Assembly (NCBI GenBank): GCA_943788095.1 | Contig: CALSOZ010000004.1 | Location: 62,001 to 126,000, forward strand | Reading direction: 5' to 3' | DNA from: an uncultured Flavobacteriaceae bacterium | Lineage (GTDB): Bacteria > Bacteroidota > Bacteroidia > Flavobacteriales > Flavobacteriaceae | Length of the DNA stretch: 64,000 nt | Shown: positions 3,566 to 51,629 of the stretch, piece by piece | Position numbering within the stretch: position 1 is the first letter of the stretch | Layout: each line of letters opens with the position of its first letter | Notes under the pieces: generated by a model | What the model was told of the DNA's origin: nothing | Database searches by the model: none | What the model saw: only the letters and a program-made list of their open reading frames with translations | Program-made: the position numbers and the translations under genes

Positions 3566-5698
3566 ATGAAACTTAATATCCTTTCTCTAATTTTAATATG
3601 CTCACTAACTTCCTGTGACACTAAGACAACTAAATCAATGTCAGAATTACCGAATGCACCATTAGCAACTCAAATTCCTAAAAATTTAACCATCCATGAC
3701 GATGTGAGAGTTGATGAGTTTTATTGGTTAAACGATAAAGAAAATCCCGAAGTAATCGATTATCTCAATAAAGAAAACGACTACTATAACGCGAACACGG
3801 CGCATACCAAAGATTTTCAAGCGTCTTTGTTTGATGAAATGAAGTCCAGAATCAAAGAAGACGATAGTTCTGTGCCTTATAAGTACAATAGTTACTGGTA
3901 TATCACCAAGTATGAAAAAGGGAAAGATTACCCGATCTATACTCGAAAAAAAGGAACCTTAAAAGCGGCTGAAGAGCTCCTGTTTGATTGTAATGAAATG
4001 GCCAAAGACCATTCGTATTTTAGATTGGTTGGATTGAACATAAGCCCAAATAATAAGTTGATTTCTTATGGAATAGATACCACGGGCAGACGTCAATATA
4101 GCTTACATATCAAAGACCTTACAACCAATAAAGTTTTTAAGGAGGAAATATCAAACACCACTGGTGGGAGTACTTGGGCCAATGATAATAAAACCTTTTT
4201 TTATACCCTTAAAGACGAAACTACCCTACGTTCAGAAGCGATTTACAAACACCGATTAGATACCGACCCCAAATTAGACACGTTAATTTATGAAGAAATG
4301 GATGACACTTTTTCGGTGGGGGTTTATAAAACCAAATCCAAAAAATATTTAGTGATTGGCAGTTACAGTACGTTGACGACCGAATATCAGATTTTAAACG
4401 CAGATACACCTGACGGAGATTTCAAGATATTTCAACCCAGAACCCGCGGTTTAGAATATGGAATCTCTCATTTTGAAGATGCGTTTTATATCGTTTCGAA
4501 TGCCGATGGTGCTCAAAATTTTAAGCTATCCAAAACCTCGGAAACGCAAACCGAAAAAAAATATTGGAGCGATGTGATACCACACAGAGAAGGAGTGTTA
4601 CTTGAAGATATCGAGATTTTCAAGGACTTTTTAGTGGTTTCGGAACGTGAAAATGGTTTGAATCAGATCCATATAAAACGTTGGGATGGCACTGATAGTT
4701 ATTACCTCCCTTTTGAAAGTGAGACCTACACGGCGTATACAACGACTAATATTGATTTTGATACGACGATTTTACGATATGGCTATCAATCCCTGACCAC
4801 GCCCTCTTCTGTGATTGATTTTGATATGGTTACTAAGTCTAAAACCATAAAAAAAGAACAAGAAGTATTGGGTGGAAAATTTAAAAAAGAAAATTACACA
4901 TCCGAACGCTTGTGGGCAACTGCTGCCGATGGGACTCAAATTCCTATTTCGTTAATTCGTCGTATAGACACTAAAAAATCAGCCGACACTCCTTTGTTGT
5001 TGTATGCTTATGGATCTTATGGAAATACAATTGACCCCTATTTTTCGACAGTCCGAATGAGTCTGTTAGATCGAGGATTTATTTTTGCGATTGCTCACAT
5101 TCGGGGTGGCCAATATTTAGGTCGTCAATGGTATGAAGATGGAAAACTATTTAAAAAGAAAAATACGTTTTCAGATTTTGTGGACTGTTCAAAATACTTA
5201 ATTGAAAATAATTATACTTCTGCCAAGCATCATTATTCGATGGGAGGCAGTGCTGGAGGACTTTTGATGGGTGCGATCATCAATTTAGCGCCAGAGTTAT
5301 ACAATGGCGTGGTTGCTCAGGTGCCGTTTGTCGATGTCGTCACTACGATGTTAGACGATAGTATTCCGCTGACAACTGGAGAATATGACGAGTGGGGAAA
5401 TCCAAATGAGAAAGAGTATTACGAGTACATGAAGTCGTATTCGCCTTATGATAATGTGTCCAATAAATTATACCCAAATATGTTGGTTACGACAGGATTG
5501 CACGACTCTCAGGTACAATACTGGGAACCCGCAAAATGGGTTGCTCGCTTAAGAGCGCAGAATAAAAACACAGCTCAACTCTACCTTAAAACCAACATGG
5601 AAGCAGGTCATGGAGGTGCCTCTGGACGATTTGAAGCATTAAAAGAAGTGGCATCAGAATACGCATTTTTATTAGATCTTGAGTCAATCTTAAAATAG
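3566..5698 (+). CDS. ptrB: Oligopeptidase B (S9A prolyl oligopeptidase family), lipoprotein
   Basis: 710 aa. Residues 1-17 form a lipoprotein signal with lipobox LTSC, so the enzyme is predicted to sit in the periplasm or on the outer membrane. The middle is a beta-propeller and the C-terminus an alpha/beta hydrolase. Catalytic Ser is in SMGGSAGGLLMG, Asp in GLHDSQVQYWEP, His in EAGHGGASGRFE. These motifs match protease II, which cuts after Lys/Arg in short peptides. The first residues of the mature domain (IHDDVRVDEFYWL) are the usual S9A N-terminus. It lies 41 bp after ltaE and may be co-transcribed. Exported versions are common in Bacteroidota. Confidence 0.92.
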   Translation: MKLNILSLILICSLTSCDTKTTKSMSELPNAPLATQIPKNLTIHDDVRVDEFYWLNDKENPEVIDYLNKENDYYNANTAHTKDFQASLFDEMKSRIKEDDSSVPYKYNSYWYITKYEKGKDYPIYTRKKGTLKAAEELLFDCNEMAKDHSYFRLVGLNISPNNKLISYGIDTTGRRQYSLHIKDLTTNKVFKEEISNTTGGSTWANDNKTFFYTLKDETTLRSEAIYKHRLDTDPKLDTLIYEEMDDTFSVGVYKTKSKKYLVIGSYSTLTTEYQILNADTPDGDFKIFQPRTRGLEYGISHFEDAFYIVSNADGAQNFKLSKTSETQTEKKYWSDVIPHREGVLLEDIEIFKDFLVVSERENGLNQIHIKRWDGTDSYYLPFESETYTAYTTTNIDFDTTILRYGYQSLTTPSSVIDFDMVTKSKTIKKEQEVLGGKFKKENYTSERLWATAADGTQIPISLIRRIDTKKSADTPLLLYAYGSYGNTIDPYFSTVRMSLLDRGFIFAIAHIRGGQYLGRQWYEDGKLFKKKNTFSDFVDCSKYLIENNYTSAKHHYSMGGSAGGLLMGAIINLAPELYNGVVAQVPFVDVVTTMLDDSIPLTTGEYDEWGNPNEKEYYEYMKSYSPYDNVSNKLYPNMLVTTGLHDSQVQYWEPAKWVARLRAQNKNTAQLYLKTNMEAGHGGASGRFEALKEVASEYAFLLDLESILK

Positions 5699-5714: not shown

Positions 5715-5722
5715 TAAGTTTG
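5715..5722 (+). promoter_or_regulatory. Candidate Bacteroidota -7 box (TAAGTTTG)
   Basis: TAAGTTTG fits the Bacteroidota TAnnTTTG -7 consensus and lies 27 bp before the TTG start of the next gene. No clear TTG at the -33 spacing was found, so this is a half promoter only. Confidence 0.4.
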
Positions 5723-5749
5723 AAATCTATTTAAATATAAAAACTTGAT

Positions 5750-6793
5750 TTGGTAAATAAAGAAAAATTAATATTCAATAATGTTTTAGAATTAGTGGGG
5801 AATACGCCATTAGTTAAGTTGAATATAGTCACTTCTGATTTCCCTGGCACCTATGTTGCGAAACTGGATTCTTTCAATCCCGGACATTCCTCAAAAGACC
5901 GAATTGCGCTTCATATCATTGAAGAAGCAGAAAATAAAGGGGTTCTTAAACCTGGAGATACCATCATCGAAACCACTTCTGGGAATACTGGATTTAGTAT
6001 TGCGATGGTCAGTATTATCAAAGGGTACAAATGTGTTTTGGCGGTGAGTTCAAAATCGTCTTTAGATAAAATTGACATGCTAAAAAGTATGGGCGCCAAG
6101 GTATATGTTTGTCCAGCAAACGTCCCTGCGGATGATCCGCGTTCGTATTACGAAGTCGCCAAACGTTTACACGAAGAAATTGAAGGCTCTGTCTATATCA
6201 ATCAATATTTTAATCACCTTAATTTAGAGGCACATTACAAAAGTACTGGGCCTGAAATATGGAAGAATACAGAAGGAAAAATCACGCATTTAATTGCGTG
6301 TAGTGGGACTGGTGGCACCATTTCGGGAACTGCGAAATATTTAAAAGAACAAAATCCAGATATTAAAATAATAGGCGTTGATGCTTATGGATCTGTTTTG
6401 AAAAAGTATCACGAAACCCGAGAGTTAGACCCTAGTGAAATTTACCCATATCGCATTGAAGGACTCGGTAAAAATTTAATTCCTTCCGTTACCGATTTTG
6501 ATCTCATCGATCAATTTATAAAAGTGAATGACGAAGATAGTGCTCACACTGCTCGTGAAATATCTAAAACCGAAGGTATCTTTGTAGGTTATACTTCTGG
6601 TGCAGTTGTACAAGCGGTTAAACAACTACAAGAAACTACCGCATTTAAACCGACAGATCTAGTCGTTCTTATTTTTCCAGATCATGGTTCTCGTTATATG
6701 AGTAAGGTATATAATGACCAATGGATGAAAGATCAAGGCTTTTTTGATCATCAAAAGCAAGATGCTGCTCAAAGCATCGAATTTATTAAATAA
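5750..6793 (+). CDS. CysK/CBS-family PLP enzyme; candidate cysteate synthase (CapA-like)
   Basis: 347 aa, fold-type II PLP enzyme. PLP Lys is at about residue 49 in [11 protein letters not shown], where cysteine synthases have SVKDR; the substrate loop TTSGNTGFS and phosphate loop GTGGTISG are intact. The start is TTG at 5750; no in-frame ATG precedes the conserved [14 protein letters not shown]. It could be an ordinary cysteine or cystathionine synthase, but it is directly followed (110 bp) by an alpha-oxoamine synthase. In capnine (sulfonolipid) synthesis of gliding Bacteroidota, CapA makes cysteate from O-phosphoserine and sulfite and CapB acylates it; this neighbour pair fits that scheme. 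Family certain, substrate inferred. Confidence 0.6.
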
Positions 6794-6872
6794 TTTCTCA
6801 GACAAATTTTCCAATACTCCTATAGACATCATCATAATTGTCTTAATATTATGTATTCATAATATTATTGTA

Positions 6873-6880
6873 TAATTTTG
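6873..6880 (+). promoter_or_regulatory. Candidate -7 box (TAATTTTG)
   Basis: TAATTTTG matches TAnnTTTG and sits 22 bp before the ATG at 6903. It would let the oxoamine synthase be transcribed apart from the upstream PLP enzyme. The matching -33 element is not obvious. Confidence 0.4.
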
Positions 6881-6902
6881 TGAAGCAAACTAACATTGAA
6901 TT

Positions 6903-8165
6903 ATGACAAGAGATTTATTCGACAAAATCTATAAAGATAAAGGACCACTAGGGAAATGGGCAAGCCAAGCAGAAGGGTATTTTGTATTTCCAAAATTAGA
7001 AGGTCAGATTTCAAACCGAATGAAATTTCAGGGTAAAGATGTGATTACTTGGAGTATAAATGATTATTTAGGCCTTGCAAATCATCCCGAAGTCAGAAAA
7101 GTGGACGCTGAAGCTGCAAACGATTACGGATCTGCCTACCCAATGGGTGCTCGGATGATGTCTGGACATACCTCACTTCACGAACAATTACAAACTGAAT
7201 TAGCAGAATTTGTAAGCAAAGAGTCAACCTATCTCCTAAATTTTGGATATCAAGGCATTATGTCTACCATTGATGCGCTGGTTGGTAAAGATGATATTAT
7301 AGTTTACGATGTAGATTCGCATGCCTGTATCATTGACGGCGTTCGTTTACACATGGGGAAACGGTTTACCTACAAACATAACGATATTGAAAGCTTAGAA
7401 AAAAACCTCGAACGTGCTACCAAAATGGCTGAACATACCGGCGGTGGAATTCTTGTAATTTCGGAAGGTGTTTTTGGAATGCGTGGAGAACAAGGAAAAT
7501 TAAAAGAAATTGCAGCCTTAAAAGAAAAATTCAATTTTAGATTTTTAGTCGATGATGCACATGGTTTTGGAACCTTAGGGAAAACGGGCGCTGGCGCCGG
7601 TGAAGAACAAGGCGTTCAAGACGATATTGATGTGTATTTTGCAACCTTTGCGAAGTCCATGGCAAGTACGGGTGCTTTTATCGCTGCCGATAAAGAAATT
7701 ATAGACTATTTAAAATATAACTTACGTTCACAAATGTTTGCAAAATCGCTGCAAATGCAATTGGTTAAAGGCGCTTTGAAACGTTTAGACATGATCCGAA
7801 CCATGCCCGAACTCAAAGAAAAGCTCTGGACCATTGTAAATGCTTTGCAATCTGGATTAAGAGACCGCGGATTCGATTTAGGAAGCACGCAGAGTTGTGT
7901 TACACCAGTGTATTTAAAAGGAAGTATTCCCGAAGCGATGGCCTTGGTCAAAGACCTTCGTGAGAATTACGGAATTTTCTGTTCTATTGTGGTGTATCCA
8001 GTAATCCCTAAAGGATTAATTTTGTTGAGGTTAATACCAACATCGATGCATACTTTAGAGGATGTAGATGAAACACTAAACGCCTTTTCTGTAATTAGAG
8101 AACGCTTAGAAAAAGGAATTTACAAACGCCTATCAGCATCTGTTGCAGCAGCAATGGGTGAATAA
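6903..8165 (+). CDS. Alpha-oxoamine synthase; serine palmitoyltransferase or cysteate acyltransferase (CapB-like)
   Basis: 420 aa PLP enzyme that condenses an amino acid with an acyl thioester. Signatures of the family: SINDYLGLANHPEV, GSAYPMGARMMSG, the substrate-Asp/His segment LVDDAHGFGTLG and the PLP Lys at about residue 251 in FATFAKSMASTG. It resembles the Bacteroidota SPT-type enzymes rather than KBL or BioF, with an N-terminal extension DLFDKIYKDKGPLGKWA. Products would be 3-ketosphinganine (serine) or 3-ketocapnine (cysteate). The upstream CysK-fold gene favours cysteate; this is inference. Convergent with the next gene, stops 5 bp apart. Cytosolic or inner-membrane associated. Confidence 0.75.
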   Translation: MTRDLFDKIYKDKGPLGKWASQAEGYFVFPKLEGQISNRMKFQGKDVITWSINDYLGLANHPEVRKVDAEAANDYGSAYPMGARMMSGHTSLHEQLQTELAEFVSKESTYLLNFGYQGIMSTIDALVGKDDIIVYDVDSHACIIDGVRLHMGKRFTYKHNDIESLEKNLERATKMAEHTGGGILVISEGVFGMRGEQGKLKEIAALKEKFNFRFLVDDAHGFGTLGKTGAGAGEEQGVQDDIDVYFATFAKSMASTGAFIAADKEIIDYLKYNLRSQMFAKSLQMQLVKGALKRLDMIRTMPELKEKLWTIVNALQSGLRDRGFDLGSTQSCVTPVYLKGSIPEAMALVKDLRENYGIFCSIVVYPVIPKGLILLRLIPTSMHTLEDVDETLNAFSVIRERLEKGIYKRLSASVAAAMGE

Positions 8166-8169
8166 TCTG

Positions 8170-9285
8170 TTAAAGCTCTTTTCGAAACGTACTTCGCTTT
8201 TTAATTAACACGGGATTAAAATCTAACCATAATTTTTGAATGGCTATATTGTCAGCCAATTCTGGGGTTCGACGGCATTCTACAATTCCTTTTTCAACAA
8301 AGGTTTTATGAAATGCGCTAAAAATTATGGAATGAACTCCTTTTTTTTGGTATTTGGGATGCACTCCAATTAAGTAAAAATTTAACTTTTTGGACTGCTT
8401 CGCTTTTAAAATATTAAAAATTCCAAACGGAAATAATTTACCTTTAGATTTTTGTAATGCTTCTGAAAAAGAGGGCATTGCAATTCCAAATGCGATCAGT
8501 TCATCCGTCTCATCAATCACAAATTTGATGTATTCTGGATTGATAAAACTTAAAAATTTCTTCTTTAAAAAATCTTTTTGAATGTCGGTAATTCTTACAA
8601 AAGACGATAAGGCGGCATAGCTTTCATTAAATAAATCGAACATTTTATCCGCATACGGCATCAAATCTTTTGTACTCTTAAAACTTAAAGATTTTAGTTT
8701 ATAACGCTCTCTTACGACTTTTTCTAACTTGTCAGATTTATCAATTTTAATATCACTAAACTGGTGTTTATGTTCTATATATTCTTTTTCCACTTGAAAA
8801 TTTAATTGTTTCAAGTGATCGACATAATAGGGATGATTATACCATGTAACCATCGTTCCAATTTCGTCATATCCGTAAGTGAGCACGCCTACTTTATCTA
8901 AATTAGAAAACCCAATAGGGCCTTCCATATGATCCAATTTATGAGTTTTTCCAATGGCTTCTACTTTGTCTAATAATGCTTTGGTAACTTCGAGGTCGTC
9001 AATCATATCCAACCATCCAAAACGCATTTTATTCACGCCTTGATCTTTGATTTCTAGCCAATTGGTGATGGCTGCTACACGTCCAACAATTTTATCATCT
9101 TTATAAGCGAGAAAGAGTCGAGCATCGGCATTTTGCAGAACCGGATTTGTCGCTTTGTCGAAGATCTTTATTTCCTCACTTATAATAGGAGGGACCCAAT
9201 ATTTTGAGTTTTTGTAGAGTGAAAAAGGAAATTTCACAAACTTTTTATGTTCCTTTTTTGTAAGGGCTTCTTTAATTAAAATCAT
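8170..9285 (-). CDS. GNAT-fold N-acyltransferase-like protein; candidate ceramide/sulfonolipid N-acyltransferase
   Basis: 371 aa. The N-terminal domain begins with FPFSLYKNSKYWVPPI and FLAYKDDKIVGRVAAI, and the C-terminal domain contains FYLIGVHPKYQKKGVHSII, a GNAT acyl-CoA-binding pattern (Q/RxxGxG-like QKKGVH). Such proteins are often misnamed GTP cyclohydrolase in flavobacterial genomes; no cyclohydrolase motif is present. The family resembles the GNAT-type proteins linked to bacterial ceramide synthesis, so N-acylation of the long-chain base made by the adjacent oxoamine synthase is a reasonable guess. The gene is convergent, not co-operonic, with that enzyme. Function not proven by sequence. 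Confidence 0.6.
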   Translation of the reverse strand: MILIKEALTKKEHKKFVKFPFSLYKNSKYWVPPIISEEIKIFDKATNPVLQNADARLFLAYKDDKIVGRVAAITNWLEIKDQGVNKMRFGWLDMIDDLEVTKALLDKVEAIGKTHKLDHMEGPIGFSNLDKVGVLTYGYDEIGTMVTWYNHPYYVDHLKQLNFQVEKEYIEHKHQFSDIKIDKSDKLEKVVRERYKLKSLSFKSTKDLMPYADKMFDLFNESYAALSSFVRITDIQKDFLKKKFLSFINPEYIKFVIDETDELIAFGIAMPSFSEALQKSKGKLFPFGIFNILKAKQSKKLNFYLIGVHPKYQKKGVHSIIFSAFHKTFVEKGIVECRRTPELADNIAIQKLWLDFNPVLIKKRSTFRKEL

Positions 9286-9322: not shown

Positions 9323-10276
9323 TTATTTTTTCCTTTTTTTCTTTTTTCGAGATTTTCTACCACCTAATTTTTTTGCAGAGTTACTATTATCTATATTCTC
9401 TTTGTCAACATGTCGATCTAATCTATAAGAAGCTCCAAAATTAATACTTAAAACAGATGGTGTGTCTTTTACATTGAGTGTAAACGCTGTATCCAATTGT
9501 ATATTTTGATTCCACAAATAGCCCCCTCCAAATCTAAATAAATTATCAGCATAAAAATCGCTTTTAATCCCTTGTGTTTCTCCAAAAATCACCCACTTAG
9601 GATTAAAGGAGTGGGTTAATGTCACAATATACTGGAACTCTTGTTGCTCGCTTGTGATACGATCCATAATGATATTGGTTACAAACACCCATCCACCAGA
9701 AAAATTATTTTGAGTGATTAAAGCACCTCGATAACTCAAGCCTTCCACTCCAGGAGCTGTATATGGGTTGTCTTCATTATCAAAATTTACGCCTGCTGAA
9801 ACGGAAATAGCTGGTATTAAGTTTTTTAATTGAAAACTTCTATTGGCATGATAGCTGTAAAGATTGGGTTTTTTGTTTAAGTTTTTTTTATTTGGATCGT
9901 ACACCAAATATTTTGCACCAGCATTTAATGTCTTAAAATTTGAGCGCTTATTTTCAACTCCACCAAGAGCATCGTACAACTGAACATCACTCTGGAACGT
10001 TCCTTGGACATTAAATTCCAAAGCTTCTTTCCAAAATCCATAATGTGCCGCAAAATCTACGCCATATCCAGAGACTTCATACTTGGGATGAATAGCTCTT
10101 TTTTCTTTCACAATATAAGGCCCTACTTCAAACTGAAACACTTGAGTACCAACAGCGAACGCACTTTGTGAGGCGCCGGGTCGATTCGAGTTTATAACAT
10201 CGGTATATTGCGCATGGGCATTTGGATAGAACCCAAAAACAGCGATAAAAATAATCAGGTAAGAATAAAATTTCAT
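9323..10276 (-). CDS. Outer-membrane transporter-like beta-barrel (MetA-pathway/phenol-type), lysine-rich tail
   Basis: 317 aa with a signal peptide ending PNAHAQ at about residue 22. The body alternates aromatic and polar residues like a beta-barrel and begins with INSNRPGASQSAFAVG, typical of flavobacterial 'transporter' proteins in the PF13557-like group. The C-terminus is odd: after the last strand come about 35 residues ending in a run of Lys/Arg (GGRKSRKKKKRKK), beyond the usual terminal aromatic of a barrel. Substrate unknown. Transcribed alone, 37 bp downstream of the GNAT-like gene's start, so the two may be co-transcribed with this gene first. Confidence 0.65.
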   Translation of the reverse strand: MKFYSYLIIFIAVFGFYPNAHAQYTDVINSNRPGASQSAFAVGTQVFQFEVGPYIVKEKRAIHPKYEVSGYGVDFAAHYGFWKEALEFNVQGTFQSDVQLYDALGGVENKRSNFKTLNAGAKYLVYDPNKKNLNKKPNLYSYHANRSFQLKNLIPAISVSAGVNFDNEDNPYTAPGVEGLSYRGALITQNNFSGGWVFVTNIIMDRITSEQQEFQYIVTLTHSFNPKWVIFGETQGIKSDFYADNLFRFGGGYLWNQNIQLDTAFTLNVKDTPSVLSINFGASYRLDRHVDKENIDNSNSAKKLGGRKSRKKKKRKK

Positions 10277-10414
10277 TTAAAACACTTTCATCAAACCTAC
10301 ATAATTTTTTTATATTTATAATTAATTAGAAGTATTTTCTTAACTGATTTCCACCTTTTTTCTTCTACTTTGAATCATTTTATATAATAATTTATCTAAT
10401 AAAAATAAGAATTG

Positions 10415-10422
10415 TATTTTTG
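10415..10422 (+). promoter_or_regulatory. Candidate -7 box (TATTTTTG)
   Basis: TATTTTTG matches TAnnTTTG, 16 bp before the ATG of the DUF4834 gene and likely drives the DUF4834-YfhO-GT4 operon. No good -33 TTG at usual spacing. Confidence 0.4.
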
Positions 10423-10438
10423 AAGAAATAATCTACCG

Positions 10439-10705
10439 ATGTTACAAACTGCGTCTATTATTGGATTCCTTAGAACGATTCTAATTTTTGTTTTGGTTTA
10501 CACCATTTTTAAGTATTTGATGCGCCTATTTGCGCCGTATATAGTTAAATCGATCGCTAAAAAAGCGGAGGCACATTTTAGAAACCAATCAGCTCCAAAA
10601 CCACCGACTCAAAAAGAAGGTGAGATTAGTATTGATAAAATACCAAATTCCAAAACATCTAATAAAGATGTGGGCGAATATGTGGATTATGAAGAGGTTG
10701 AATAA
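10439..10705 (+). CDS. DUF4834-type small membrane protein
   Basis: 88 aa. One hydrophobic segment at residues 8-26 (GFLRTILIFVLVYTIFKYL) is followed by a basic amphipathic stretch and an acidic, disordered C-terminus ending DVGEYVDYEEVE. This shape matches the DUF4834 family of Bacteroidota, whose function is unknown. It begins an operon with YfhO (11 bp gap), an arrangement common in Flavobacteriaceae. It would be anchored in the inner membrane with the tail in the cytosol. Confidence 0.75.
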   Translation: MLQTASIIGFLRTILIFVLVYTIFKYLMRLFAPYIVKSIAKKAEAHFRNQSAPKPPTQKEGEISIDKIPNSKTSNKDVGEYVDYEEVE

Positions 10706-10716
10706 AAAGACAAACG

Positions 10717-13125
10717 ATGAATTTTAGCTTAAAAAAATTTGGCATACACTTTTTAGTAATTTTAGGCTTTGCTTTGGTTGCTGTGCTGTATTTCAATCCA
10801 GTGTTAAAAGGGCAAAAAATTTATCAAAGTGACATTGTACAGTATACTGGCATGGCCAAACAACAGATCGATTTTCGAGATGTTTATGATGCCGAATCCT
10901 ATTGGACCAACAGTGCTTATGGTGGAATGCCAACCTATCAACTAGGCGCTAAATACCCTCATAACTACATTAAAAAATTGGATTTAGCTCTTCGGTTTTT
11001 ACCAAGACCGGCAGATTATCTTTTTCTATATCTTTTCGGATTTTACATTTTGTTGTTGGTTTTAAAAGTAGACTATAAAGTCGCCGTTTTAGGTGCGCTC
11101 GCCTTTGGGTTTTCTACCTATTTGATCATAATTCTAGGGGTTGGGCATAATTCAAAAGCCCATGCAATTGCTTATATGCCGCTGGTGTTATCAGGTATTA
11201 TTTTGACGTATCAAAAACGTTATTTTTTAGGGTTTATAATCACGGTGGTTGCTTCTGGATTGGAATTGGTAACTAACCACCCTCAAATGTCGTATTACCT
11301 CGGTTTTTTAATTGTAATTCTAGCGATTTCATATTTTGTGCAAGCCTATAAATCAAACCAACTGAAAGCTTTTTTTAAAGCTTCAGGGATTTTGATCGTT
11401 GCTGCGATTTTGGCATTTGGTATGAATGCCACCAATTTATTGGCAACTAGTGAATATACCAAAGAAAGCACACGTGGTCAAAGTGAATTAACAATTAATG
11501 CGGATGGCAGTGTAAAAGAACAAACAACAGGCTTAGAGAGCGCCTATATTACGCAATATAGCTATGGGATTTTAGAAACGTTTAATTTGTTCATCCCAAG
11601 ATTTATGGGCGGTGGTAATAGAGAAAATCTCGGCAAAGATTCGGAAACTTATAAAGCTTTCAGAGCTTTGGGAGCGACGCCGCTTCAAGCCCTTCAAGAA
11701 TCCGAACAGGCACCAATGTATTGGGGCGATCAACCTATTGTAGAAGCGCCAGCCTATGTTGGAGCAGTGGTGATTTTCCTTTTTGTCTTGGCGTTATTTT
11801 TATATAATGGCCGCTTCAAATGGTGGCTGATTGCTGGTGTTTTAACATCCTTACTATTATCTTATGGAAAAAACCTATCATTTTTAACGAACTTTTTCAT
11901 TGATTATATTCCTCTATATAACAAATTTAGGGCGGTAAGTTCTATTCAAGTTATTTTGGAACTGTGTATTCCACTTTTAGCAACTTTAGGATTAACGCAA
12001 TTGTTTCAAAAAGATGTAAGCTCAAAAATGAAGTTAGATGCGCTCAAGAAATCTCTCAGTATTGTTGGGGGATTGACGGTCTTATTTTTAGTTTTTAAAA
12101 ATAGTTTATTTGATTTTGTTGGAAACAGTGACGGCCAGTTTCAACAGTATTACGGCGTATCATTTGTAGAAGCGATTCGTGCGGACCGAAGTGCAATTTT
12201 TAGCGCAGATTCCATGCGAACTTTGCTGTATGTCTTAGCTGCTGCAAGCTTGATTTTTGCTTACATCAAACAAAAATTATCTCAAAATACAACCATTATT
12301 ATTTTAGGTCTTATCCTTGTTTTTGATTTAGTAGGCGTCGACCGTCGCTATGTAAATTCAGATGATTTTGTGCCGGCCATCAAAGTTGATCGTCCCTACC
12401 AAGCAAATTCTATTACTAAAGAATTATTAAAAGATACCACGAACTTTAGAGTGTTTGATATGTCGGATAATTCGACTAAAACCTCCTATTTTCATAATTC
12501 AATTGGGGGATATCATGCAGCAAAATTAAGACGATTCCAAGAGTTGCAAGAATTTCATATTGATAAAAACAATTTTGAAGTTCTAAATATGCTAAATACC
12601 AAATACATCATCTATCAAGATAAAGAAGGGGAGACCCGATATTTTGAAAATGAAAAAACCAATGGCAATGCTTGGTTTGTAGATGCGATTGAAAGCTATG
12701 ATTCTGCAGATGAAGAAATTTTAGCTTTAAATAAAATTAAAACCAACACCACAGCTATAGCCAATAGTACGGAACTTAGTTCGCGACGTTTTACCAAAGA
12801 TTCCACCGCCTCAATTCAGTTAGTTGATTACAAGCTCAATCAGTTGGTTTATGAAACAAAGAGTTCTGAAGATGGATTTGCGGTATTTTCGGAAATTTAT
12901 TACAAGAATGGCTGGTCTGCTACCCTTGATGGAACTCCTGTAGATCATTACAACGTTAATTATGTGCTTCGCGGCATGGAAATTCCAAAGGGCTCACATA
13001 GAGTCGTATTTCAATTTAATCCAACGGTAGTCAAAACAGGATCCACGATTGCTTTAATCAGTACTGTTTTAGTCGTGATTTTGATGTTGGGGATAGCGAT
13101 TCTTAATTCCAGAAAACCATCGTGA
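10717..13125 (+). CDS. YfhO-family polytopic membrane protein
   Basis: 802 aa. The N-terminus carries one membrane helix and then the segment SDIVQYTGMAKQQIDFRD, which holds the acidic residues typical of GT-C-type and YfhO proteins, followed by about ten further membrane segments up to residue 560. A soluble domain of about 200 residues follows (DTTNFRVFDMSDNS, GYHAAKLRRFQELQE) and the protein ends with one more helix. In Gram-positives YfhO helps decorate teichoic acid; in Bacteroidota it probably acts on a surface glycan. It overlaps the downstream glycosyltransferase start by 4 bp (GTGA), which supports shared function. Confidence 0.85.
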   Translation: MNFSLKKFGIHFLVILGFALVAVLYFNPVLKGQKIYQSDIVQYTGMAKQQIDFRDVYDAESYWTNSAYGGMPTYQLGAKYPHNYIKKLDLALRFLPRPADYLFLYLFGFYILLLVLKVDYKVAVLGALAFGFSTYLIIILGVGHNSKAHAIAYMPLVLSGIILTYQKRYFLGFIITVVASGLELVTNHPQMSYYLGFLIVILAISYFVQAYKSNQLKAFFKASGILIVAAILAFGMNATNLLATSEYTKESTRGQSELTINADGSVKEQTTGLESAYITQYSYGILETFNLFIPRFMGGGNRENLGKDSETYKAFRALGATPLQALQESEQAPMYWGDQPIVEAPAYVGAVVIFLFVLALFLYNGRFKWWLIAGVLTSLLLSYGKNLSFLTNFFIDYIPLYNKFRAVSSIQVILELCIPLLATLGLTQLFQKDVSSKMKLDALKKSLSIVGGLTVLFLVFKNSLFDFVGNSDGQFQQYYGVSFVEAIRADRSAIFSADSMRTLLYVLAAASLIFAYIKQKLSQNTTIIILGLILVFDLVGVDRRYVNSDDFVPAIKVDRPYQANSITKELLKDTTNFRVFDMSDNSTKTSYFHNSIGGYHAAKLRRFQELQEFHIDKNNFEVLNMLNTKYIIYQDKEGETRYFENEKTNGNAWFVDAIESYDSADEEILALNKIKTNTTAIANSTELSSRRFTKDSTASIQLVDYKLNQLVYETKSSEDGFAVFSEIYYKNGWSATLDGTPVDHYNVNYVLRGMEIPKGSHRVVFQFNPTVVKTGSTIALISTVLVVILMLGIAILNSRKPS

Positions 13126-49734: not shown

Positions 49735-51629
49735 AATGCTTTGAGTTGGTATGTATTTCTTTCGGTAATTTCGATTATTCCTCTTTCTAAGAGGTTCGCT
49801 AAAATAGCGGTTAATGTGTTGCTATCAAAAGAACTTAAGGTTTCAAGTTTTCGAGACGAGAGCGAATCTTTTTTCAGTAAAGTTAAGATTGTTTGAGTAT
49901 CCTTTTTTGAAAATGATTTGTTTTTGGATCGTTCCAAACAACTCGAACAAATTCCACATGCTTTTGAGTCAGTTTCTTCAAAATATGAAAGTAACTTTTG
50001 ACTTTTACAAACGCCATCATTTTTAATGTAATCAAACACGGATTGAAGCTGTGCTTTTTTTAAATCGTGTTGTTGGGTTACAATTTTTGAAATTCTATGA
50101 ATTGTTTTATCATCCTCTCGCGGTTCTATAAACGTGATTTGTGCATCGGTTTTAGAAAATTCGAACGTTACAATTTCAGCGGCGTTTAAAGCGGTTAGTT
50201 CTGCAATGACTTGAGCTTCTGTAAGGTTTGTTTTTTTAGCGATGGTCTGCGTGTAAATTTCTGTAGAATGGTCAAAAACGCCTTCATACGTTCTTAAAAT
50301 CAACTTTATAATTAAGGCTTGTTTTGGATGCTCTTCAATGTAATTAAACAAGGCCGTATTTCCAATTTTAATCTGTATATAGGCCGTATTTTTAAATCGT
50401 TCTTCCAACGAAATAATGCTCGTACGATCTAAAATTCTGAGTGCATTGTAGGTCAATGCGGAAGGGAGTTTATAGGTGCTGCAAAATAATTTAAAATTAA
50501 AACTATGAACCGTATTGACCCCTTCTCCATAAGAAATTTGGAAATAATTACACAACCGCTTATAGATGGTTTTTAAAAAATCTACATCTGGTAACGCATT
50601 GATAAATTGATTTTTGGAATCTGTGTCATCCGAAGTATTCCGAAGAATCACAGCGTATGCATTTTCATTATTTCGACCTGCGCGGCCAGCTTCTTGGTAA
50701 TAACTTTCTAAACTTTCAGGCAAATTATGATGAATCACGGTTTGCACATTTGCTTTGTCAATTCCCATTCCAAAGGCATTTGTCGCCACCATAACTTGAT
50801 TTTTATTAGCCGTCCAAAGATCAAATTGTGTGTCTTTTTCTTTGGGGCTTAATCCGCCGTGATAATAGCCACTTGCAATTCCGATATTATTTAAATACCC
50901 TGCTATCTCAAGTGTAGCTTTTCGATTTCGCACATAGATAATTGAGGTGCCAGAATATTTTTTTAAAATTTGAACGGTTTTAAAGTATTTATCTTCGCAC
51001 TCTAAAGTCAGATACGCCAAATTTGGGCGTTGAAACGAGGTCTTCAAAATCTGTGGAGCAATACAATCCAATTGAATACAAATGTCCTCAACTACTTTGG
51101 CAGTTGCTGAGGCTGTTAAACCAATTACATTTACATTAGGCTGGAGGGCTCTGAGCGATTTAATATCTCGATAGGCAGGTCTAAAATCGTGCCCCCATTG
51201 ACTGATACAATGCGCCTCGTCCACCGCAATTAGATTGACATTCATTTGTTTGATGCGTTCTTGAACTAAATCTTGTTGAAGCCGTTCGGGAGATAAGTAG
51301 AGAAATTTATAGTTTCCATAAATACAATTATCCAACATCCGATCGATGTCCTCATACGTATATCCACTGGTTAACGCCATGGCTTTGATGCCCTTCTCTT
51401 TGAGTGTATTGACTTGATCTTGCATCAATGCAATGAGTGGAGAGACCACAATACAAATCCCCTCTTTGATTAGCGCAGGAATTTGAAAGCAAACCGATTT
51501 TCCGCCTCCCGTTGGTAGCAGTGCAATGCAGTCCTCTTTTGCCAAAACCGCTTCGATAATAGCTTCTTGTTGGGGTTTAAATTCTGAAAATCCCCAATAG
51601 TGTTCCAATAGTTCAATTGGATGCTTCAT
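49731..51629 (-). CDS. recQ: RecQ-family DNA helicase, no HRDC domain
   Basis: 632 aa. Walker A LLPTGGGKSVCFQIP, DEAHCISQWGHDFRPAY for motif II, and the second helicase domain with MGIDKANVQTVIHHNLP and YYQEAGRAGRN. Zn-binding Cys in GVCKSQKLLSYF, CGICSSCLERS. After the RQC wing the protein ends without a clear HRDC domain (C-terminal SLSSRKLETLSSF instead), a short RecQ form common in Bacteroidota. 3'-5' helicase in recombination repair. Overlaps neighbour genes by 4 bp on both sides. Confidence 0.94.
   Translation of the reverse strand: MKHPIELLEHYWGFSEFKPQQEAIIEAVLAKEDCIALLPTGGGKSVCFQIPALIKEGICIVVSPLIALMQDQVNTLKEKGIKAMALTSGYTYEDIDRMLDNCIYGNYKFLYLSPERLQQDLVQERIKQMNVNLIAVDEAHCISQWGHDFRPAYRDIKSLRALQPNVNVIGLTASATAKVVEDICIQLDCIAPQILKTSFQRPNLAYLTLECEDKYFKTVQILKKYSGTSIIYVRNRKATLEIAGYLNNIGIASGYYHGGLSPKEKDTQFDLWTANKNQVMVATNAFGMGIDKANVQTVIHHNLPESLESYYQEAGRAGRNNENAYAVILRNTSDDTDSKNQFINALPDVDFLKTIYKRLCNYFQISYGEGVNTVHSFNFKLFCSTYKLPSALTYNALRILDRTSIISLEERFKNTAYIQIKIGNTALFNYIEEHPKQALIIKLILRTYEGVFDHSTEIYTQTIAKKTNLTEAQVIAELTALNAAEIVTFEFSKTDAQITFIEPREDDKTIHRISKIVTQQHDLKKAQLQSVFDYIKNDGVCKSQKLLSYFEETDSKACGICSSCLERSKNKSFSKKDTQTILTLLKKDSLSSRKLETLSSFDSNTLTAILANLLERGIIEITERNTYQLKAL

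Follow-up and report, generated by a model that had tools for sequence, protein, structure and literature searches.

Which enzyme attaches the second acyl chain of a sulfonolipid is the question raised by a three-gene locus in the 64,000-nucleotide stretch of Flavobacteriaceae DNA analysed here (the window), which comes from a 1.74-Mb genome that is 75% complete. Sulfonolipids, major lipids of the outer membrane in Bacteroidota, are needed for efficient gliding and serve as signals for choanoflagellates and for mammalian immune cells. Enzymes are known for three early steps of their synthesis, the first to the third, and N-acylation then gives the mature lipid, as in the sulfobacins and lipids of the RIF-1 type. 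Our search of the literature found no published assignment of the N-acylating enzyme, although most subscription papers were out of reach and an assignment may exist there. A first-pass annotation, made from the letters of the DNA alone, had picked out three open reading frames, namely a CysK-fold PLP enzyme, an alpha-oxoamine synthase and a convergent GNAT-like protein, and had read them as CapA, CapB and an N-acyltransferase. All three lie where it had placed them, with the synthase and GNAT-like genes converging so closely that their stop codons are 4 nt apart. As set out below, the first two are known enzymes, and the GNAT-like protein is a candidate for the last step of the pathway.

The capA and capB genes

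The gene at 5750-6793 (+ strand, 347 aa, TTG start) is assigned to the cysteate synthase CapA, a PLP enzyme of the CysK/CBS fold. Its product matches NF053679, the equivalog that NCBIfam names 'cysteate synthase', at 626.2 bits, above the cut-off of 600, whereas the cystathionine beta-synthase (CBS) model gives 396 bits, below its cut-off of 510, and the best solved relative is PDB 9k2p with 502 bits, against 280 for the next best. When eight CBS/CysK-type paralogs, taken from genomes of Flavobacteriaceae, were put into a tree as comparators, 16 CapA rows including 9k2p were split from the paralogs by a 100/100 branch, and two of these paralogs reach only 467 and 477 bits with the CapA model. 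The grouping with true cysteine or cystathionine synthases, which the first-pass annotation had named as a danger to its own reading, was thus not found. That the enzyme is such a synthase and stands next to capB by accident is hardly credible on this evidence, even though CBS paralogs within Flavobacteriaceae are 53-59% identical to CapA, and the recurrence of the CapA-CapB pair across the family (see below) speaks against it as well; we rejected a CBS/CysK identity for this gene. Less weight falls on the PLP loop. The unusual HSSKDR sequence is indeed present, and CapA relatives carry HS[STA]KDR, QSSKDR or LSSKDR where the CBS/CysK paralogs of Flavobacteriaceae read NSVKDR or NSTKDR; but Rv1077, a CBS, carries GSSKDR, so the loop alone proves little about CapA identity and is a weaker marker than had been held.

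The gene at 6903-8165 (+ strand, 420 aa), an alpha-oxoamine synthase, is identified from its solved relatives and its active site as the cysteate C-fatty-acyltransferase CapB/SulA. Its best solved match is PDB 28eh (706 bits), deposited as 'Cysteate-C-fatty acyltransferase', and SulA of Alistipes finegoldii (PDB 7u7h) gives 566 bits, whereas the serine palmitoyltransferase (SPT) 3a2b gives 243; against the Bacteroidota SPT model NF047600 it scores 293.7 bits, far under the cut-off of 640. Lys281, the residue that separates cysteate enzymes such as SulA from SPT (PMC9304779), is present with identical numbering in the window protein and in all 110 CapB loci aligned, whereas 3a2b has Ala, and the catalytic residues Lys251, His140, Asn53 and Arg376 are also kept. 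Matches to CapB put the genome within Flavobacteriaceae, the nearest named ones being in an uncultured Flavobacteriaceae MAG (96%), Paucihalobacter, Psychroserpens and Algibacter. A synthase that uses serine, in a locus that makes an ordinary sphingolipid, would fit the SPT fold of the protein and the SPT linkage of GNAT relatives elsewhere; the scores, Lys281 and the adjacent capA make this a very remote prospect, and an SPT identity was rejected. In sum, a curated family model, solved relatives, a tree and an active-site residue all confirm the CapA-CapB pair proposed in the first-pass annotation.

Both genes are ordinary for Flavobacteriaceae, and NCBIfam already has a model for CapA. Among 131 genomes of the family, nearly all of different genera, CapB occurs in 130 and CapA (at least 62% identity) in 127, and in 123 of these 127 the two lie no more than 2 kb apart. 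The order prolyl oligopeptidase-CapA-CapB is intact in 77 of 80 named loci; the first of these genes (3566-5698, + strand, family S9, PF02897/PF00326) has no known role in the pathway and, standing directly upstream of capA, accompanies the locus more constantly than the GNAT gene does. On the other side, the gene for an outer-membrane channel-like protein (Phenol_MetA_deg, PF13557; 9323-10276, - strand, as the GNAT gene) is present in 56 of the 80 loci, and together with a YfhO-like membrane protein (9323-13125 for the two) it adjoins the locus in about 55 of 80 cases, including loci that lack the GNAT gene. A genome of the same genus carries a small gene pair between capA and capB (L177 5673-6358), one member of which, named by eye, is VapC/PIN toxin-like. 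Across the class, CapB-like proteins were found in 220 of 247 sampled genomes, and of 30 loci read from that search just 5 had CapA no more than 1.5 kb from capB; with Lys281 kept throughout the aligned loci, the cysteate acyltransferase is far more widespread in the class than the studied sulfonolipid producers suggest.

The reductase step

The first-pass annotation had noted that no SDR for the ketone step is adjacent, and this proved correct: a KdsR-like SDR lies on another contig of the window genome (C13, ~49908-50706). A frame break near codon 97 divides it in two, and 3-ketodihydrosphingosine reductase (KdsR, NF049977) is the curated family that fits either half best. The neighbouring transaldolase-like gene is frame-broken too (L176 3900-5449), which makes an assembly error in this contig likely. 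Intact versions in six CapB-bearing relatives tested score 244-278 bits against the NF049977 cut-off of 400 and so are not formal members of that family, and in three genomes lacking CapB the best match reached at most 127 bits. As a class-wide partner of CapB the SDR was rejected, with strong matches in only 20 of 247 genomes; these 20 include every Flavobacteriaceae genome sampled, and other families must use other reductases. Inspection of the conserved neighbours of the SDR gene revealed no further lipid gene. The GNAT family also has a third clade, further removed, with members beside or close to KdsR-like SDR genes (L221 4797-6904 and L208 6040-9958): the two genes are divergent neighbours in one genome (G156) and about 2 kb apart in another (G001), a further hint of long-chain-base metabolism.

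The convergent GNAT-like protein

The gene at 8170-9285 (- strand) encodes a tandem-GNAT protein of 371 aa for which Pfam and NCBIfam gave nothing over threshold and sub-threshold GNAT scores only, and a PDB sequence search gave no significant match. Every one of the 45 relatives aligned shows PF00583, at a best E of 2.7e-13, the acyl-thioester motif YQKKGV stands at residues 312-317, and the predicted structure (mean pLDDT 92.4) resembles solved tandem-GNAT proteins with E values of 1e-11 to 1e-12. The window family aligns with E. coli YghO over its full length (hhalign probability 100, E 1.1e-42, 359 columns), and a single-sequence BLASTP already gives E 3e-33. PMC9386255 gives YghO as the counterpart of CC_1154, the ceramide N-acyltransferase (bCerS/CerS) of Caulobacter. 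Its annotation in E. coli K-12 is that of a putative DNA-binding transcriptional regulator (L186 21044-22216), while papers group it with the bCerS N-acyltransferase. Homology thus makes the window protein a member of the YghO/bCerS family. When 47 sequences of the family were placed in a tree, one main group held YghO, five SPT-linked Bacteroidia proteins and a more distant unlinked clade, and the other held the window protein together with every CapB-linked protein and an SPT-linked one from the genome G102. As the clade of the window protein is separate from that of YghO (100/99 support), it is a relative of bCerS and not an orthologue.

The genomic company of the family is that of long-chain-base synthases. 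In six Bacteroidia genomes a GNAT-family gene lies directly downstream of an SPT gene, overlapping it by 4 nt in two of them (G102 and G213), and the SPTs of G102 and G038 score over the curated SPT cut-off; G102 is also the genome whose SPT-linked member falls into the window protein's own clade. It has been stated that the three ceramide genes of sphingolipid-producing Bacteroidota are not close together (PMC11334938), to which these neighbour cases are exceptions for two of the three. In E. coli BL21(DE3), yghO is 3 kb from spt, with genes for an ACP, an epimerase and an acyl-AMP ligase in between. Strong GNAT relatives in genomes that lack CapB seemed at first to speak against an N-acyltransferase of sulfonolipids, but SPT was then found in most of those genomes, which turned the observation into support: of the 27 CapB-less genomes of the class, 11 have a GNAT match that reaches 130 bits or more, and 9 of these carry SPT, against none of the other 16 (Fisher p 1.2e-5); counted by taxonomic family, the figures are 4 of 6 versus 0 of 9 (p 0.011). 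The exceptions, G241 (1.2 Mb) and G176, have the GNAT family and neither CapB nor SPT.

Within the 131 Flavobacteriaceae genomes the GNAT gene is present in 121, none of which lacks CapB, and the only genome without CapA and CapB is also without it. The gene converges with capB within 6 kb in 98 of the 121 and is far from it in 23. Nine complete CapB-bearing genomes of the family have no GNAT-family member at a profile E of 1e-3, and many CapB-bearing genomes of other families also lack one. The loci of Mesonia, Gramella, Christiangramia, Gillisia and Salegentibacter retain the usual neighbours but not the gene, which is cleanly absent. In such organisms a different enzyme must act, or capnine must stay free.

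Discussion

Together, these data support a model in which this is a sulfonolipid locus of Flavobacteriaceae and the GNAT-like protein is the N-acyltransferase of sulfonolipid synthesis, a reading to which we give a probability of roughly two in three. CapA would form cysteate from phosphoserine and sulfite, and CapB would join cysteate and an acyl thioester to give 3-ketocapnine and CO2, both reactions being established for the respective families and the latter being of the type that SPT performs with serine. The KdsR-like SDR would then reduce 3-ketocapnine to capnine, and the GNAT protein might take a further acyl chain from acyl-CoA or acyl-ACP and place it on the amino group of capnine or 3-ketocapnine to yield the N-acylated sulfonolipid. 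Whereas the presence of the SDR can be read directly from the genome, as can the identities of CapA and CapB and the family of the GNAT protein, we infer the substrate of the latter, and N-acylation could come before or after the reduction. The role suggested for this protein in the first-pass annotation has gained independent support from its full-length homology to YghO/bCerS and from the operon linkage of the family to SPT, and is still best worded as a candidate function.

A different role for the GNAT protein deserves consideration. CapA and CapB could be as named while the GNAT protein N-acylates some other amine, on an aminolipid or a small molecule, and lies beside capB by inherited gene order, with an unrelated enzyme acylating the sulfonolipid. 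The nine CapB-bearing genomes without the family would be in keeping with this, as would the two genomes that have the family in the absence of both synthases and the further GNAT-family clades of no assigned role. Moreover, genes without a lipid role are equally well conserved at the locus: in the 80 named loci the outer-membrane channel, YfhO-like and glycosyltransferase neighbours are about as constant as the GNAT gene, so that gene order alone is no proof of a shared pathway and may reflect inherited synteny. The case for an N-acyltransferase of sulfonolipids rests mainly on two things, homology to bCerS and a tight linkage to SPT genes that extends to the window's own clade; both of these, and the co-occurrence with SPT in CapB-less genomes, speak against a different amine as substrate, and we regard that alternative as unlikely, at around the level at which it still has to be kept in mind.

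Returning to the N-acyltransferase reading, we further propose that a distinct Bacteroidota clade of the bCerS/YghO family, once acting on long-chain bases made from serine, was recruited to those made from cysteate and serves as the sulfonolipid N-acyltransferase in most Flavobacteriaceae, thus completing a CapA-CapB-reductase-N-acyltransferase pathway; this wider proposal seems to us probable, with slightly less assurance than the function of the window protein itself. The GNAT gene, unnamed in Pfam and NCBIfam, would in any case represent a specific candidate for the last sulfonolipid step in those 121 genomes, and, if the proposal is true, the synthesis of sphingolipids and of sulfonolipids would be tied to one acyltransferase family.

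Comparison with known systems

The two PLP enzymes are the same as the CapA-CapB pair of Capnocytophaga ochracea (Liu et al. 2022, cited in PMC12927429), which likewise has consecutive accessions (ACU93374/ACU93375), and the window CapB agrees with A. finegoldii SulA (PDB 7u7h, PMC9304779) in fold, in active-site residues including Lys281 and in numbering. Alistipes makes cysteate through an archaeal-type synthase (PMC10191378), whereas the window locus has CapA. The distance of the SDR from capAB is as already described for the reductase genes of C. gleum and A. finegoldii (PMC11211663), and the resemblance to KdsR and 3-ketocapnine reductases (NF049977) lies in the best curated family of both halves, the intact relatives being under its cut-off. 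The published pathway of CapA, CapB and CapC has no N-acyltransferase assigned in the accessible literature, whereas the window locus holds a candidate for one.

The closest parallel for this candidate is the bCerS/YghO system (PMC9386255, PMC11087976), with which it shares homology along the whole protein and a family linked to the gene of a long-chain-base synthase. The connection to Caulobacter CC_1154 runs through those papers, our own homology having been computed against YghO, to which the window protein is about 25% identical from a separate clade; it also carries the canonical GNAT motif where YghO reads YQFSRIG. The Caulobacter pathway acylates first and reduces afterwards, in the periplasm (PMC11087976), whereas here the candidate reductase is a KdsR-type SDR and the order may differ. 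The bCerS/YghO system stands beside SPT, which uses serine, and the window protein stands beside CapB, which uses cysteate.
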